A DNA stretch of 64,000 bases from Nannochloropsis oceanica (Eukaryota; Sar; Eustigmatophyceae; Eustigmatales; Monodopsidaceae): contig CP038121.1 of the NCBI GenBank assembly GCA_004519485.1, positions 577,034 through 641,033 on the forward strand. Reading direction: 5' to 3'. Shown here in pieces: positions 1-47,700 of the stretch. Positions within the stretch are counted from its first letter, which is position 1, and the number at the start of each line of letters is the position of its first letter. A program made the translations under genes and the position numbers. The notes beneath the pieces were generated by a model. It searched no databases, was not told where the DNA came from, and worked only from the letters and a program-made list of their open reading frames with translations.

Positions 1-2362
1 TCGTAGCTGTGCCCGTCACATGTCAGAACGGGGTCTCTTGTGGATGAGCGAGAGATGAGGGGGAAGAAGAATAGAAATTTTGAGGAAAAAGGGAAGTTGT
101 GAGACTCTGGAATAAAGAGATACTATGGAAAAAATACAATGGGTAGATCTGATGTACAGCATGGAAAAGAGATAGTAGGTCGCCCTCTCGAGGAGGCAGC
201 GCATGAGGGACCGAAGCAGAGTGTGTTGGAGGATGAGGGGACGCAAGTCTGCTAGGGAGTGTTCGGTCGCTTTTTTGTCCACCTCCAACGCAGCTGACCA
301 GCGATAAAACCTGAAGAAGTCCCCGTCTCTATTATTTCTCCATTTCACCCGTTGTACAATAGTCTTTGCTTGGGGGGAGGAAAATGGACGTGTCAATCGT
401 GGCAATTACCTCATAATGCAGCGGGAGATGGGACACAGAAGTGGTTCAAGCGCCGCGTCGTGCAAAGGCTGTAGTGGATGGGCGGCTTTCGCGGTGGTAT
501 CCATCTGGGAGTGTGTGGGGTGGATGAGGTGAAACCCAGGAAGTGGAGGTTGTGTTGCAAGCCGGCATCCCAACGTAAACATTCAGGTGCTTGTTCTTCG
601 TCAGAAGTTGAGGAGCGAAGGCGCTCGGTCGTGAAAGGATCAAGAGCAGAGTACTAGCAGGCAAAATGCTTGAGCAGCTACAAGGTAAATACCGTTCGAG
701 GCTGCTATTATTAGGTGCACTTATCTCTCTTGGACAGTCAGACAGGGCGGACAGTCGCAACGCCTGCAACGTTCCCTTGCAACGATCCCTTGAATTCGGG
801 GAGAAAATGAGATGGCGCATAATCAATTGAGAACCATACGAACGCGGGGAACAGCGCAGAAATTTATTCAACAATCACTGACTGGGCAGTCGTGTACGTG
901 GTGTTGGTTGTATGTGTCCCTGCTGGCTATGACCAGAAAGAAATAGTGGTGCCAGGTCGTTCGTTACTCTGGGCAAGTGCGGTGGTTCACGTTGGGGTGA
1001 TTCGTCTTTCCCTTGGCTTCTACACCCCATACCACCGCGCACCGCGCATATGAAGGATACGATGACAAGAACAACATAAGAAAATGTCAGACAATCTGCA
1101 AAGCCACGTTTCCCGTAAAAATGGCCGGTACATTTTGTTCGAGCACCACCCCATCTCGAGGATCGCCTTTCAAGCATCTCTCCAGAGTTATTTCAAGGTC
1201 TAGAAGTAGGGCTTTAAACATATTCTCTATTTCAAATGGATCAGAATACATGTTTTCATCATTAACGATCTTGAGCAAGGACTTGCCTCATGTGCTGTCT
1301 CTTTAACAAAAGCTAGTAGACTCACGATAGTAGAGCATTGAGAGTGCTTGTCGTTCGCCGGCGATACTATCTCTATTCTCGTCTTCCTCCGCGTAAATTT
1401 TCGAGACTTCACATACCATGCTTATAAGCAAATTTAAATAAAGGCAGGCTTTCACGCATACATGAACGATGTTGGTCAGGGATCTAAGAGGGTTAAGAGA
1501 GTTAGAGGATTTAGAGGATTAGAGGGAAATGTGCTTGGAAAGCTCAAACCACCGCTTGTTTTTTCTTTTAAGGCTTTATTCTGTATTAACCTTGATATCA
1601 TCACATAAAACTGACTCTTGGCACTTCAGTCTTATGTGTTTTAGCTACCGAAGAGGCCATAAAGGTCGATTCAGGTAGGCGAGGCGTGGAATATGGTGAT
1701 ACCACTTTCAAACGTTCCAATGAAAAAAATGATTTAAACGACATGTTCAAAGCACTCCACGAGCCACGATTCTCATGACGAAAGACACAAATACAGGCTT
1801 GTAGAATCAGTTTGACGACCAGACTTTATTGATGAAGCCGTCTAGGACTTCGACTCCCAAATTCCTACAGCTTACGGGCTTGGACCCCCTCCGAGAAAAC
1901 AATGGCTGGCTGGGCCACACCCATATGACTTTTTATGATGGCCACCCCTCCATCATGCCTCCCTGCTTTCCTTGACCCCTCTTTTCCTTTCAGACGACAG
2001 GGCAATACCAGTGCCGGCTCGCCTCTTCGTCTTGTCAACTTCGTGGGACGTTCGTAACGTGCCGTCGGGCATCCAACGCCGGGCCCATGCATCATGAGGA
2101 CACGTTTTGATCGATGGTCGCTCTAGTGCCTACGCGCATCGCATTCCCCAGGCCAAGCCATATGGCATGGCTCATGTACCTAGAGACCCGTCATGCCTGT
2201 TGCCCATGCTGCAGTCCAACATGAGACCCTCCCTTCTTCCCACTCTCCTCATCTAATCCTAGGTCGCCTCGCCTTGCCTGAGTCCTTCCCTCCCAGGGCT
2301 CATTTTTACCTTCCTTCCCGACCCACGCCATGCCATGTAAGTGATAGATAGAGGAGCAATGG
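1..2362. other. Left-edge region without a supported gene
   Basis: No reading frame here resembles a known family. Open frames on the minus strand (16-405, 446-874, 875-1177) have no recognisable motif and are expected by chance. One stretch on the minus strand, 1087-1278, reads like ordinary protein (rich in E, D, L, with a run LLLDLEITLERC) and could be an exon of an unknown gene, but its flanks do not connect to other exons. Positions 1500-1530 carry a small run of related 'agaggattt' units. The stretch 2100-2360 precedes the Rab gene and probably holds its 5' UTR and promoter. Confidence 0.4.
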
Positions 2363-32223: not shown

Positions 32224-35200
32224 CTAGTTGTGATCCTGCAGGCTCCCGCTCTCAGTCCCGCAGAATGGGTCGATGACGATGTTGATGAGGGTGGGGCCCG
32301 TCCCTGCGATTGCCTGGAGGGAGGGAGGGGGGGAGGGAGGGAGGGGGGGAGGGAGGGAGGGAGGGAGAGGAAGGTGTGTGAGTGTTGGTCTTACACACAA
32401 TTCCTCCGCCCGTTGGATGTCAGTTGACTCGATTCTGCGAAACAGCCCACTGCACAGATTTTCTCTTGTCCCTCCCGCCCTGCCTCCCTACCTGCGCCAA
32501 GGCCGCCTCCAGCTCCTCTGGGGTCGCGGCCGAGAGGCCCCGAGCGCCGAGGCCGATGGCCACGAGGTCGTATCGCAGATCGGGAGTGAAGGCCGTGGGC
32601 GTGGGGTCCTGGGGGAGGGAAGGAGGGAAGGAGAGTAGGGGAAATGAAGGCAATCAGTAGTGGGCGAGAATGGGCCAAAGGGCCAAGCTGGGAGTAATTT
32701 GACTTTGTGCTGCCTGGAATCCATCCCTCTGCCTCCCTCCCTCCCTCCCTTCTTTCCTCCTTCCCTCCCCCCCATCCCGCTTTACCTCCGGGAAGGCCGT
32801 GCCAGGGTCGCCCTCGAACTTCCCACCGTAGATACCGTTGTTGTTGAAGACCAACACGATGATCTTGAGCTTGTAGCGGGCCATGGTCTCCACCTAGGGC
32901 ACGGGGGGAGGGAGGGAGGTAGGTAGGAAAGTATTATGAATCGATGCATCATCTTCATCCCATCGATTCCTCCCCCCCTTCCTCTCCCTCTCCCTCCCTC
33001 CCTACCTCCATGCCGCTGAATCCGAAGGCACTGTCGCCCTCGATCGCAAAGACACACCGCTCGGGTCCATGCACGGCTGCGGCACCGATAGCGTAACCTA
33101 GACCTACGCCCATAGTGCCCCACGTGCCTGAAGGAGGGAGTGAGGGAGGGAGGGAGGGAGGGAACTGCCGTTGGTTCGGGTACTACTGGAGGGAAAGAGG
33201 GAAGGAAGAAGGTGAGGAGGGAGGGAGGGAGGGAGGGGAAAGCAGGGCGTACCAGCGTCGAGGCGGGCGCGGGGCGTGGTCATGTTGAGGAGGGAGCGGC
33301 CGATGTCCATGGTGTTGGCGCCCTCAGAGACGATGACGGGGGGGGTCTAGGAGGAGGAGAGGAGGGAGGCATGTGGAATGAGCGGTCAGTAGTTTCACGA
33401 CAGGAGGGAAAGAGGGAGGGAGGGAGAGAGGGAGGGAGGGAGGGAGGAGGGGGCAGGTACGTACGGGGAGGGCGGCGATGGCCTTAAGGATGACGGCGTA
33501 AGTGGTGTGATAGTCAAGGGGCACCTTGACCTTGGCCAGCTTCGAGGCCATGGACTGGCTGTTTTTGGCGACCTGTGGTGGGGGGGAGGGAGGAAGTATG
33601 AGGGGGGGAGGGAGGAAGGATGAGGACAGAGGCACCGTCGTCTTGGGCCATGGACAGGCTACTCCTAGGGCGGAGCGAGAAAGGGAGGGAGGGAGGGGAG
33701 GGAGGGAGAGAGGGATAGGTGGTGGACTATCTGGCACGAGGAAGGGAAGGAGGAAGGGAGGGAGGGAGGGAGGGAGGGAGGTGGGGGTACCTTGGCTTGG
33801 ATGGCTCCGACCCACTCGCCGCCGGCGTCCACCTTCCAATTGGTCGCACCCAGGCCCTGAACGGGGGATGGGGACATGCGAGGGAGGGGGGAGGAGGGGG
33901 TGAAGAACAAGATTAGATGCTGGAGGAGGAAATGATCGAAGAGGGGAAGGAGAGAGGGGGGAGGGAGGGAGGGAGGGAAGGAGGGCGGGTATACCTTGTA
34001 CAGTGCGCTGACAATGGTCTTGGCGTGGCCCGTCAGGTGTCGCCGCCGCTCCGACTCGGGCAGGTCCTGCGGCATCGGAAAAACAAAAGAAACGAGGGAG
34101 GGAGAGAGGGAAGGAGGGAGGGAAGAAGGGAGGGAGGGAGAGAAGGAGGAGGGGAAGGAGGGAGGGGGAGGGAAGGCAAAAATGTACAATAAAGATGAGC
34201 AACTGTCACGATACACTCGCACGGTGTCCCTAGCCACCCTCTCTCTTTCTCCCTCCCTCCCTCATTCCAGACCTGAACCACGTCCACGAGGATAAAGGTC
34301 GCCTGTGGGTTCCAACGGGGGGGCTCGCCATAGTGCAGGATCCAGTTCAACCGCGCCCCTACTACCAGCACCACATCGGCCTGGAGGGGGGGGGGGCGGG
34401 AGGGAGGACGGGAAGGAAATGAATGACGTGGCAAAGGAAAAGTCGACAAGCCGGAAGTCCGCGCTTTGACCATCCTCGTTTCCGCCCTCCCTCCCTCTCG
34501 CCCTCCCTCCCTCCCTCCCTCCCTCCCTACCTCCTTCAAGACCAAGCTCCGCGCGGCCGCCGCCGAGAGCGGGTGGTCATCCTCCACCACCCCCTTCCCC
34601 ATGGGCGTGGCCAGGAAGGGAATCCCTGTGCCGGCCACCAGGGCGCGGAGCTCATCTATAGGGAGGAAGGGAGGGAGGGAGGGAGGGAGGGAGGGACGGA
34701 CGGAGGGGTGAGATGGGTGATGTATTATCATTCGTGGAGCCAAATTGGCCCTCCCTCCTTTCCTTTCTCCCTCTCGCCGTCCCGCCCGCCCTCTCTCCCT
34801 CCTTGAGCCTGCAAAAAGCATCTGGGCTGCTCAAGACAGATGAATACCTAGTTATCACAGCCGACCTCGTCTTCCCTCCCTCCCTTCCTCCCTCCCTCCC
34901 TCCCTCCCCGCTCACCCTCTGCTCGTGCGTAGGCCGCGCCCTTGCCGAAGACCAAGAGGGGCTTCTTAGCCTCCTGGAGGAGGGCCAGAGCCGAGGCCAG
35001 GGCGGTGGGGTCGGGGGTGAGGCCCGCAGACTGAGGGAGGGAGGGAGGGAGGGAGGGAGGGAGGGAGGGAGGGAAGGAGGGAGGGAGGGGTGGGTGAGCA
35101 GGCGCGCGCATGCGGGAGCCGAGGTAGCGTGGGTCCATAATGTTGGTCATGCTTCATCGAGGGCTTGAACGGGTGATGACGACAAAGGGGGGGCGAGGGA

Positions 35201-37219
35201 CGGGAGAAGAGGGAAGAAAGAGAGAGAGGGAGGCTCGTCACACCTCTGCCTCCCGAGAAGCACAGAAAGAGGGAGGGAGAGGAAGTGAGCGGCAGATACC
35301 TGAATGCTGGCGAGAGTGGGGGCCACGGCCGCGGCCTTGTCGAGCTCTACCGCCTCCTCCGTGGGAGAAATTCTGCGACAGGTGGGGAGGCAGGGAGGGA
35401 GGCAGGCAGGCAGGCAGGGAGGGAGGGAGGGGGGGGGGGGCTTAGAATTAAAAGAAATGTAAAAAATGACACGCCAGCCCCACTCCTCTCTTTCCATTCC
35501 CTCCCTCCCTCCCTCTCTTGCTCCCTCTCTCCCTCTTTCCATACCTGGAGTGCAACACGTCGGCGGGCAGGTCAATGTAGGCCCCTCCGGGCCTCCCTGA
35601 GGCGGCCAGAGTAACGGCGTCGGCTACGGCCTGGGGAATGGCCTCGATGGAGGTCACGGGGAATACCCCCTTGGCATGGCGCCTGGCCGCCTCGAGCTAC
35701 GAGGGAGGGAAAGTAGAGAGGGAAAGGAGGTTATGTCGTTTCTGCTTAGTTTCCTCCATGTGATGTTTCCCCTTTCCCCCCTCGGCCCTCCCTTGCCCCC
35801 TCCCTCCCTCCCTCCCTCCCTACCTGATCCAGTTCCTGGAAGCCCCCGCCCTTGCCCCGATTGCTGCGGGCGGTGGAGCCGGAGAGCATCACCACGGGCC
35901 AGGCGTTCGTGCCTGGGTAGGGAGGGAGGAGGGGAGGGGAGGGAGGGGGAGAGGGCGGGTGGGACGAGGGAGGGAGGAGGGCGGGAGCGATAGATGTTGG
36001 GCTGGAGGGGGAGGGACGCGGCTTACCGGCGTTGGCGAGCCCCGCCAGCCCGTGAACGACGCCTGTGAGATGAAAGTTTCACCGTGTGTTAATCAGATGG
36101 GACACTATATGTGAATCTAGGCTAATCTCTTGAGTAAATGGAATGAATGACACATCTTAATCAAGAGACCCCATTTCTTTCATATAAGGTAACGCCACAC
36201 GAAGGTGAAGCGAAAGTGCTCAGTCATCACCCGCTATTCCTGCCTCCCTCCCTCCCTCCCGCCCTCCCTCCCGCCCTCCCTCCCGCCCTCCCTCCCGACC
36301 TGGCCCTGACACGGTGAGGAGACCGGCAGGCTTGCCGGTCATGTAGCCGATGGCAGTGGCGGCGTAGGCGGCCGCTTGCTCGTTGCGGAAGGCCAAAAAA
36401 CGGATGCCCACCTCCTGGCGAGAGGGGGGGAAGGGAGGGAGGGAGGGAGGGAGGGAGGGAGGGAGGGAGGGAGGGAGGGAGGGAGGGAAATGAGTGCGGT
36501 TGTCGCTGCACAAGGAAACGACACAGCGAGAGGAAGAGGGACACGAGGGAGGGAGGAAGGGAGGGAGGGAGGGAGGGAGGGAGGGAGGGAGGGAGGGAGG
36601 AAAATAAGTGCGGTTGTCGCTGCACAAGGAAACGACACAGCGAGAGGAAGAGGGACACGAGGGAGGGAGGAAGGGAGGGAGGGAACAAGGCAGTACCTGC
36701 GCCGTGTTCCCCAGGCGCGTGACGGGGATGCCGACGACGCCGCACATGATGTCCATTCCCGCCGCCTTGAGGGCCTTGGCCGCCAGGAGGTAGCCGTCAG
36801 TGCCTTTGGGGGGGGGAGGGAGGGAGTGAGAGAGAGGGAGGAAGGGAGAGGTGAGGAGTAGGTGGAACTCGGCGGCTGAATCTTTCCCGATTGGAGAGAA
36901 AGGGAGAGGGGAAGGGAGGGGGATGAAGAAAGGAAGGGTGGGAGGAAAAGAGGGAGGAAGGGCGGGAGGGAGGGGTAGTGAGTACCTTTGGAGGAAGCAT
37001 CGGCAGCGGGGGTGGAGGAGGAGGAGGAGGAGGGGGAGTCGGCCGCGGGCGAGGCCCTGTGAAGGCGTGGCAAGAGAGGGAGGGAGGGGGGAAAGCAAGC
37101 AAGTGGATGGACGTGAGTAGGTCGGCGGCAAAAGGAGGGACGTACGTCCGTGAGGGTGCAGTCGTCGTCTGGAGAGAGGATGAGGCTCCTTCCTTCACTT
37201 CCGCCTTATGCTGCTTCAT
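32224..37219 (-). CDS. Oxalyl-CoA decarboxylase
   Basis: Thiamine-diphosphate enzyme that converts oxalyl-CoA to formyl-CoA and CO2. Nineteen exons in order: 37219-37146, 37056-36986, 36803-36697, 36414-36300, 36062-36027, 35912-35824, 35696-35545, 35372-35300, 35030-34916, 34655-34531, 34380-34273, 34066-33995, 33856-33791, 33572-33465, 33346-33253, 33127-33006, 32893-32786, 32608-32492, 32313-32224. All phases agree; 613 residues (family about 565). Seen: [11 protein letters not shown], the cofactor-activating Glu96 in FRNEQ (bacterial enzymes have HEQ), [34 protein letters not shown] typical of this family, and the ThDP motif GDSAFGFSG to FNNNGIYGG (about 499-532). It ends [10 protein letters not shown]. 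The first about 50 residues are Ser/Ala/Lys-rich without clear targeting. The upstream neighbour is the ligase that would make its substrate. Confidence 0.92.
36487..36686. repeat. Tandem duplication inside an intron
   Basis: A unit of about 114 bp is repeated nearly perfectly: the text gagtgcggttgtcgctgcac occurs near 36491 and again as aagtgcggttgtcgctgcac near 36605, each followed by about 45 identical bases and a (ggga)n run. It lies in the intron between decarboxylase exons 3 and 4. Confidence 0.85.
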
Positions 37220-38732: not shown

Positions 38733-38832
38733 NNNNNNNNNNNNNNNNNNNNNNNNNNNNNNNNNNNNNNNNNNNNNNNNNNNNNNNNNNNNNNNNNNNN
38801 NNNNNNNNNNNNNNNNNNNNNNNNNNNNNNNN
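38733..38832. other. Assembly gap of 100 N
   Basis: Exactly 100 N, a customary placeholder for a gap of unknown size. Two genes enter it: the ligase from the left (its 5' end missing) and the coiled-coil gene from the right (its 5' end missing). Confidence 0.98.
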
Positions 38833-44741: not shown

Positions 44742-47700
44742 ATGCTTTCTGCTGCCGCAGCCAATGACGCTCCTCTCCTCCTGGGCCGGGGAGATCTCCA
44801 CCATACTGCTTCCACCGCCTCCTCTTCCTCTTTCCGACCTGACGGCTCGGTAGCCATGGCCCTAGCTAGTGTAGCGACGGCGATCTCGTTGTCCATATCT
44901 CTGTTTTGCATCTACAAGCACTTGACTAATTACAGCGTGCCAAGGTATTCGGGACGCACGGGACGGAGGGAGGGAACGAGGGATGGAGCAAGAATATGCA
45001 TGGGTTGGCGCGGACACGATTCCCTCATCCTCTTGCCCCCTCCCCCCTTTCCAACCCTCAGAATACAGCGCTATATTATTCGCATCCTTTTCGTCTCCCC
45101 TGTCTACGCGCTGGGGTCTCTGTTTTCCTTGCGGTTCCCGGAGGCGAGCGTGGGCCTGGAGACGGTGAGGGAGGGAGGGAAGGAAGGAGGGAGGTAGGGA
45201 GAGAGGGAGAGAGGAAGGGAAGAAGGGAAGGAGAGAAGGTGAGGAGGCGGCGACATCGACGTGTTTGGCATTGATTAGGATACGTGGTCGACTATCAAGG
45301 TGGTATGGCGTTACCAACAAGAAGCGGAAAGATCGATCTCTCCTCTCAGGCATGTCTCCCCCCTCCTTCCCTCCCTTCCACCCTCATCTCCTCCCTCCCT
45401 CTCCTTGCCCAGGTACGCGACATGATGGAGGCCTTTGTCATTTACTCGTTCCTGGCCCTGGTGTTGGAGTATGCGGGGGGTGATGCCACGTGCTTGAACA
45501 GGTGGGTGGGGGGAGGGAGGGAGGGAGGGAGGGAGGGAGTAGAGAAGGAGGGGAGGGAGAACTTTGCCTCTGGATAGCATTCTAAGACGGGTATCCTGTG
45601 TCTCATGCTCGTCTTCTGTCCCCTTCTTCCCTCCCTCCCTCCTTCTCTCCCTCCTTTTCTCGCCCGTAGAATCAAGAATGAGCCCCCCCTGCGGCACCTC
45701 TTCCCTCTCTGTTGCCTCAGCCCCATGCCGCGCGACGGTCGCTTCTTGCGCGTGTGCAAACAAGGTGAGGGAGGGGGGGAGGGAGGGAGGGAGAAAGGGA
45801 GGGAGGGGGGAGGGCGTGATGAGTGCGTGGGTAGGCGAGAACGACGGAATGACGACAAGACTCCTCCTCCCCCTCTCCCTCCCTCCCTCCCTTCCCGCAA
45901 GGCACACTCCAATTTGCCTCCATGAAGCCCTCCATTCACCCCCTTCCCGTCCTCCCTCCCCCCCTCCCGCCTTCCCTTCCCAGGCACGCTCCAGTTCGTC
46001 TTCATTAAGCCCTTCATGGCCGCCGTCTCCCTCATCGTTACTAGCAAGGGGCTCTTCTGGTCCCGGGGGTACCAGGTGAGGGGGGGAGGGAGGGAGGGAG
46101 GGGGGGAGGGAGGGAGGGAGGGAGGGAGGGAGGGAGGGAGCCTCGTGGTCATCTACATCATCGTCTTCTCCCTCCCTCCCCGCAGCCAAGACACCCATCT
46201 CTCCCCCTCCCTCCTTCCCTCCCCCTCCGCCTCCTTCCAGGCCTCCCTCCTACTCATCTACAACGTTTCCTATTCCGTCGCCCTCTATTGCCTCGCGCTC
46301 TTCTACCTCGGTCTCAAAGATATCCTAAAATCCTTCTCTCCCATCGCCAAATTTCTCGCTGTCAAGGCCGGTGAGAAAGCAAGCCCGCCCTTTCTCTTTC
46401 CCTCCCTCAGTCCCTCCCTCCCTCTTTCCTCACTCGTCTCACCCCCACCTCTCTCCCTCCCTCCCTCCTTCCCGCCTTAGTCGTCTTCGCCACCTACTGG
46501 CAATCCCTCCTCCTCCTCCTATGGGCCGGGGAGGCCAACGCTAGCCGTTGGAACAACTTCATTCTCTGCCTTGAGATGGTGCCCTTCTCGGTCTTCTTGG
46601 GTGAGGGAGGGAGGGAGGGAGGGAGGGAGGGAGGGAGGGAGGAGGAGCGAGGACTACACCCACACACACACCTCTCGTCTTTCTTGCCTCCAGGCCTGGC
46701 CTTGTGCCTATATATGTATGTATATGTAACAATAATATAAAAGTCTTATACACCGTAACTTACACTGACCCTGTGTCCAGGCCTGGCCTTCTCCCACAAG
46801 GAGTACCGCCAGTCCCTCCCCGATAATATCGACGTGCTCCACAACATGAAGGAAGTGCTCAGTGTCAGGTAGGTAGGTAGGTAGGTAGGTAGGGAGGGAG
46901 GGAGGGAGGGAGGGAGGGAGGGAGGGAGGGCATGCAGTCTTATGAAATGTCGCTCCTTTGTTTGCATCGTGCGAATCCCACTCCCCCCACTCCCCCCACT
47001 CTCCCTCCCTCCCTCCCTCCCTCCCTCCCACCCTCCCTCCCTCCCACCCTCCCTTACCGTCTAACTCAGGGACGTGGTCGCTGACGCCTACCACAACTTT
47101 ATGCCAACCTATCAGGTGAGCACCCTCCCTCCCTCCCTCCCTCCCTTTCTCCCTCCCTTCCGCCATCCCTTCAGCAGTCTCTCGCTCTCGAGGGCCTCTT
47201 TTCCTTCTTTCCCTCGCTACACTCCTAGTCTCTCTGCTTCCCTCTCTTCCTTTCGCTCTTCCTCCCTCTCTTTCTTACTATGTTTTTTCTCCCTCCTACC
47301 AGCACCACCACTCTCGCTCTTTGCCTTTCTCTCTTGATGTTTCTCGCCCACTCGAAAGGAGCACACTCTACACAGACACTCCTTCCCACTGACACTCTCC
47401 CTTTCCTTTCTCCCTCTCTCTCTCTCTCACTCTTGATGTTTCTCGTTCCCTCGAAAGGAATACACTCTACACAGACCCCAAGGCGCCGGTGGCCGCAGCA
47501 GCGGTACGTCTTCCTCCTTCCTTTCCTCCTCCCCTCCTTCCTCCCTACCTCCCTATACTATCCCCACCCTACCCCTCTACCCTCCCCTATTACGAGAACG
47601 CAGAACTCACACCTTCTTGCCCTCCCTCCCTCCCTCCCTCCCTCCCTCCCTCAGAACGCAAGTACCGTGCGCACACTTTCCTGGCAGGTAATATTGATGC

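Follow-up and report, generated by a model that had tools for sequence, protein, structure and literature searches.

The window analysed here, a stretch of 64,000 nucleotides from Nannochloropsis oceanica (contig C23, positions 577034-641033), has its right edge at the very end of the contig and contains two genes in which 20 introns (the hand set) were placed by eye from the sequence alone, 14 in a decarboxylase gene on the minus strand and six in a PF03619 gene on the plus strand (Table 1). Both genes run on past the part whose exons were joined. The joined exons of the decarboxylase gene form a single open frame of 500 codons, and the encoded product contains the TPP_enzyme_N, TPP_enzyme_M and TPP_enzyme_C domains, in matches that span the exon junctions, with oxalyl-CoA decarboxylase as its best PDB match (E 1.2e-124). 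Those of the plus-strand gene form a single open frame of 220 codons, whose product matches PF03619 (Solute_trans_a; E 2.5e-52), again across the exon junctions; we take PF03619 to be the family that holds the TMEM184-like proteins. The introns have GT-AG ends and their removal joins conserved exons in frame, as in ordinary spliceosomal introns that carry microsatellites. On re-reading the sequence, all the intron coordinates of the first-pass annotation were found to be correct. Rfam models at gathering scores and ARAGORN gave no match within the window.

Some further features of the non-coding DNA were noted. Window positions 38733-38832 are a run of 100 Ns within tract-rich DNA. Directly upstream of the first joined decarboxylase exon, at 36432-36684, lies a tandem repeat with a unit of 114 bp (a tract plus a unique part; 2.2 copies, 97%), so the non-coding DNA here grows by larger tandem duplication too. 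Two copies of the acceptor with its exon start, CAG-GCCTGGCCTT, lie at 46690-46790, the first of them inside intron 46601-46780, and this doubling is a possible relic of tandem duplication.

Table 1. Hand-placed introns and the tract-rich end of the contig, in window coordinates
Feature	Position	Strand	End class and remarks
PF03619 gene intron	45502..45669	+	G5-C3; among seven folded singly
PF03619 gene intron	45765..45983	+	G5-C3
PF03619 gene intron	46076..46240	+	G5-C3; predicted MFE -117.7, with quadruplexes allowed -147.8
PF03619 gene intron	46371..46480	+	C5-C3, same strand at both ends
PF03619 gene intron	46601..46780	+	G5 only; second copy of acceptor and exon start near 46694
PF03619 gene intron	46869..47069	+	G5-C3; six GTAG units at start, then GGGA units
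Decarboxylase intron	32609..32785	-	G5-C3
Decarboxylase intron	32894..33005	-	G5-C3
Decarboxylase intron	33128..33252	-	C5-C3; predicted MFE -3.7, without stable stem
Decarboxylase intron	33347..33464	-	C5 only
Decarboxylase intron	33573..33790	-	C5-C3
Decarboxylase intron	33857..33994	-	C5-C3
Decarboxylase intron	34067..34272	-	G5-C3
Decarboxylase intron	34381..34530	-	G5-C3
Decarboxylase intron	34656..34915	-	G5-C3; predicted MFE -139.4
Decarboxylase intron	35031..35299	-	C5-C3
Decarboxylase intron	35373..35544	-	G5-C3
Decarboxylase intron	35697..35823	-	G5-C3
Decarboxylase intron	35913..36026	-	C5-C3
Decarboxylase intron	36063..36299	-	G5 only
Tract-rich end of contig C23	12968..64000	.	18 to 67 tracts per full 10 kb vs 1 to 9 in the preceding 90 kb

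The ends of each intron were classed by the presence of GGGAGGG or CCCTCCC within 60 nt of the splice site, denoted G5 or C5 at the donor end and G3 or C3 at the acceptor end. Introns beyond the hand set are ab initio predictions. Earlier ab initio models were discarded as they gave too few or broken genes, and the use of a single model was dropped as too poor at recovering the hand-placed introns, single runs recovering 4 to 14 of the 20. The final calls were taken from a vote over 15 settings, which at five or more votes recovered 14 of the 20 with one conflicting call; this recovery is not independent, since six of the nine peptides with which the models were seeded came from the hand genes (four from the decarboxylase and two from the PF03619 gene). 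The background model was strand-symmetric and so had no preference for GGGA or CCCT. The class counts exclude introns longer than 600 nt as well as overlapping alternatives with fewer votes, and gene finding excluded a 3.7-kb piece (C1:19414-23139). The hand set and the vote together gave 131 introns up to 600 nt long, 82 of them from tract-rich DNA (C23 beyond 590 kb and C1:100-160 kb) and 49 from a tract-poor region (C23:500-590 kb). Genome-wide counts cover 29,264,788 bases in 32 contigs, the largest of 1,670,642 bases. For patterns anchored at the donor, forward counts were used and judged one per donor, the reverse counts being inflated by overlapping tract starts; for patterns anchored at the acceptor, reverse counts were used for the mirror reason.

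That many introns begin with GGGA and end with CCCT, as first described, is evident in the hand set, where 11 of the 20 introns are G5-C3, six are C5-C3, two have G5 only and one has C5 only. Tracts cover 41.9% of the 3466 intron bases in the spans of the two genes vs 2.0% of the 2174 exon bases. The first description had understated how frequent the C5-C3 introns are and that the tracts follow the region. At the 3' end, tracts of the hand set read CCCT in 17 introns and GGGA in none (p 1.5e-5), and at the 5' end they read GGGA in 13 and CCCT in seven, a bias that is not significant (p 0.26). The 82 tract-rich introns, with 39 C3 and 4 G3 ends (p 3e-8) and 40 G5 and 12 C5 ends (p 1e-4), have the same polarity. 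GGGA at the donor is about 2.4 to 3.3 times as frequent as CCCT. The 49 tract-poor introns have only a few tracts of each kind (G5 4, C5 2, G3 2, C3 4). Within tract-rich introns, G tracts gather within 60 nt of the donor and C tracts within 60 nt of the acceptor; G-tract cover in 76 of these introns is 44% at +16..30 and 0.4% at +81..100. The middle of introns longer than 150 nt holds C tracts alone in 19 cases, G tracts alone in eight, both in six and none in 27. A milder form of this arrangement is suggested by 32 tract-free introns (G 0.318 and C 0.200 on the 5' side; C 0.345 and G 0.188 on the 3' side), and the tracts magnify this ordinary base asymmetry of splice sites. Genome-wide, CCCTCCC precedes the acceptor pattern YTNCAGGT in 264 cases vs 78 in the control, and GGGAGGG does so at the level of background (58 vs 62). 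The polarity of the tracts at splice sites is real and beyond chance.

The tracts are also unevenly distributed along the chromosomes. Over the last 51 kb of C23 they are about tenfold denser than in the preceding 90 kb; the count per 10 kb is 1 to 9 in C23:500-590 kb and then 35, 18, 67, 57 and 64 in the five bins that follow. C1:100-160 kb has 19 to 34 per 10 kb. Among the first 100 of 142 matches to long GGGA tracts (C1-C19), the outer 20% of the arms holds 48 (p 5e-10) and the central half 18, an outward lean also seen in a KS test of these places (p 1e-12). The strict donors with G tracts on C1-C4 have the same outward lean (33 of 59 among the matches listed), and the lean is weak in a comparison set of short motifs (23 of 77, p 0.04). 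As a side observation, 72 of the same first 100 are found to the right of the midpoint of their contig. Identical matched strings at C1:1667595-1668130 and C3:1504145-1504676 suggest that a segmental duplication links two chromosome ends. Intron density per kb of CDS is 4.1-5.4 for genes at the C23 end vs 1.8-2.1 in C23:500-590 kb and 2.1-2.7 in C1:100-160 kb, which is tract-rich as well (three of the 15 ab initio models in each case). The first-pass annotation had held that equal abundance outside introns would speak against a role of the tracts in introns; at the C23 end abundance is not equal (tracts make up 31% of introns, 2.4% of exons and 14% of other DNA), and in C1:100-160 kb it is nearly so (12% of introns and 10% of other DNA).

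The idea that the two tracts are paired for a purpose fails the test proposed with it in the first-pass annotation, as paired ends are not clearly more frequent than the product of the single frequencies. There are 11 G5-C3 introns in the hand set vs 11.1 expected under independence (n=20), and 23 vs 19.0 among the tract-rich introns (n=82; Fisher p 0.12, or 0.055 to 0.31 at other vote thresholds). Co-occurrence beyond independence, by which a bridging repeat would be recognized, appears only in the unstratified sets (23 vs 14.4 for all 131 introns; Fisher p 0.004 to 0.07 in a separate count), where we ascribe it to the mixing of tract-rich and tract-poor regions. Nor does the acceptor tract depend on the donor tract in tract-rich introns, C3 following G5 in 23 of 40 and C5 in 9 of 12, a small number of C5 introns (p 0.33; 0.32 to 1.0 over four thresholds). 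A genome-wide count of strict donors on the forward strand (CAGGTRAG with a tract within 28 nt, C3 being CCCTCCC 60-90 nt further on) likewise gave C3 in 46 of 146 cases after G5 vs 20 of 48 after C5 (Fisher p 0.22). Controls read backwards gave 94 and 61 G5 donors and 12 and 12 C5 donors, of which 61 and 12 were taken as unique, so that background may account for about 42% of the 146 G5 donors; for pairs they gave 2 and 6 G5-C3 and 0 and 0 C5-C3. G5 is followed by a further G tract in 16 of the 146 (controls 20 and 6).

The proposal that the two ends can pair into a stem agrees with structure prediction. The six G5-C3 introns named by the first-pass annotation, together with intron 45502-45669, are predicted to fold into structures with MFEs of -55 to -139 kcal/mol in which 30-54 pairs bridge the ends and hold them at an effective distance of 3-15 nt. 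For 21 tract-rich G5-C3 introns the predicted medians are 45 bridging pairs and 9 nt, and 23 G5-C3 introns folded with their flanks have a median MFE of -115. Quadruplexes, which had been proposed as well, are also predicted and enter the MFE structure in three of the four introns tried. Six C5-C3 introns have a predicted median of two bridging pairs. The median effective distance predicted for 17 tract-rich introns with no end tract is 12 nt, so closeness of the ends alone is not special to G5-C3 introns. Stems of this kind would bury the pyrimidine tract, with a predicted median unpaired probability of 0.12 in 23 G5-C3 introns vs 0.84 in nine C5-C3 introns, and also the donor (0.26 vs 0.52).

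Matching of each intron end with its own partner was compared with swapped partners, using duplexes between the 60 nt at either end (55 nt in the hand set) of introns of 130-600 nt. In the hand set, own ends have no advantage over swapped partners (-45.4 vs -47.6; p 0.80), nor do they in tract-rich G5-C3 introns (n=21, p 0.22) or tract-poor introns (n=31, p 0.64). They do pair better over all 96 introns (p 0.0026) and over all tract-rich introns (n=65; -43.1 vs -38.2, p 0.012), and when swaps in the latter are confined to 8-kb blocks the swapped value becomes -41.1 and the excess falls to p 0.11. Local tract density may explain this excess, though there may still be a weak real effect. The lengths of the tracts at the two ends are uncorrelated (rho 0.09, p 0.68, n=21). 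For 18 pairs of neighbouring introns in the two genes, the duplex across the exon (last 60 nt of one intron vs first 60 nt of the next) has a mean of -50.1 vs -44.3 kcal/mol within the intron, and is at least as stable as the intron's own in 8 of the 18. Stems of identical repeats have no address.

The start of intron 46869-47069, (GTAG)6-(GGGA)n, looks like slippage of the donor unit. In the local set of 39 donors the A of each GGGA unit tends to stay in phase with the donor (23, 11, 4 and 1 over the four registers), as it does in the 13 donors of the hand set (8, 4, 1 and 0; p 0.007). The 57 different strings of 59 genome-wide donors among the first 100 matches listed have no register (p 0.50), nor do the 20 of them with unbroken purines (p 0.24), and the local bias may reflect the choice of donor by the gene model. 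C3 tracts have no register (p 0.73), and the 12 C5 introns are spread over the four (2, 3, 5 and 2).

Based on these observations, we consider it probable that the pattern arises from a regional tetranucleotide expansion polarised by splice signals, with complementarity of the ends as a by-product. The GGGA/CCCT tracts would be microsatellites expanding in a chromosome-end compartment and surviving where selection allows, i.e. in introns and intergenic DNA, and the splice signals would set their strand. The acceptor needs pyrimidines, and tracts there read CCCT, as in all 17 hand introns that have one at the 3' end and in 39 ends vs 4 with GGGA in the wider set. At the donor, GTRAGG is rich in purines and G is tolerated or favoured just inside it, and tracts there mostly read GGGA. 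A purine-rich start is by composition complementary to a pyrimidine-rich end, and stems would follow as a by-product, which we infer from the independence of the two ends. Tract growth from the donor unit by slippage, to which (GTAG)6-(GGGA)n and the local register bias point, is a further and weaker suggestion, as the bias is missing genome-wide.

A different view would be that the tracts form a bridging stem that joins the splice sites and aids splicing. The very stable predicted folds, the 11 G5-C3 introns of the hand set and the better pairing of own partners found when swaps are free of neighbourhood limits are in its favour. However, the two ends are independent in the hand set and genome-wide, the C5-C3 introns of the same genes have no such stem, introns without end tracts are close-ended in prediction too, and pairing across exons is as stable as pairing within introns. 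The introns of the tract-poor 90 kb, moreover, contain few tracts, the stem would hide the pyrimidine tract and the donor, and the genome encodes a relative of the U2AF large subunit (C23:436221-437264; E 2.6e-89, 302.5 bits, below the cut-off of 310.3). The GGGA/CCCT stem is physically plausible, but on these data it is not supported as what the pattern is selected for, and we judge this view to be quite unlikely. The closest parallel is the AC/GT class of fish introns (Lin et al., as described in PMC7404189 and PMC9198270), whose complementary simple repeats at the two intron ends are predicted to bridge the splice sites and are reported to assist splicing; one of these reviews mentions a suggestion of G-, C- and GC-rich repeats in mammals. 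Membership of that class would call for splicing that depends on the stem and not on U2AF2. The introns described here resemble that class in having complementary repeats at opposite ends (11 of 20 hand and 23 of 82 tract-rich introns) and a stable predicted stem near the splice sites. They differ in that the repeat is the tetranucleotide GGGA/CCCT in a stramenopile alga, known from sequence alone, in that co-occurrence does not exceed independence, and in that same-strand C5-C3 introns are common.

Intronic G-run enhancers and polypyrimidine tracts are known splicing signals, and the two tracts could each have been selected separately, the 5' GGGA as G-run enhancers or RNA quadruplexes and the 3' CCCT as a polypyrimidine tract. 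As with these signals, the sequence is G-rich after the donor and pyrimidine-rich before the acceptor even in tract-free introns, the G tracts gather close to the donor and quadruplexes enter the predicted structures; potential quadruplexes near 5' splice sites are, in the available part of one account, said to be common in mammals (PMC5778605). Unlike these signals, the tracts are stretched into long tetranucleotide repeats and are regional, seven of the 20 hand introns begin with CCCT, and most tract-poor introns have no G tract, and we regard separate selection as unlikely. The layout also resembles inverted repeats, and the introns could belong to a mobile introner-like family with the tracts as terminal inverted repeats, to which the higher intron density of the C23-end genes and an identity between intron start and exon start slightly above shuffled (p 0.03) would conform. 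However, 146 introns masked for tracts have almost no sequence in common (four BLAST rows from three pairs, 26-29 nt), there is no excess of a direct repeat between exon end and intron end (p 0.92), and C5-C3 introns lack inverted ends; a mobile origin therefore appears very improbable.

Simple and low-complexity repeats, the same bulk class of sequence in the same species, make up 8.7% of the assembly of N. oceanica CCMP1779, in an account whose available portion does not mention the motif, its strand polarity in introns or its clustering at chromosome ends (PMC3499364). In the open-licence literature, we found nothing on tetranucleotide or simple sequence repeats together with introns in Nannochloropsis, and nothing, judged by title, on its introns in a subtelomeric context.

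The pattern is a warning that complementarity between intron ends can emerge where pairing has not been selected for, since purine-rich donors, pyrimidine-rich acceptors and a region that expands tetranucleotides are enough to produce it, and the independence and swap controls used here can be applied to claims of functional bridging repeats elsewhere. A secondary effect of the tracts on splicing is possible. It is unlikely that genes at the chromosome ends now need GGGA/CCCT stems or 5' quadruplexes in order to splice the introns in which these occur; if they do, this would be an algal class of repeat-assisted splicing that arose by repeat expansion and became partly locked in, and the own-partner excess seen before neighbourhood blocking would be its weak trace. 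G5-C3 and C5-C3 introns adjoin in the same genes of this alga, which makes them a natural experiment in which the effect of the stem on splicing is measurable inside one transcript.
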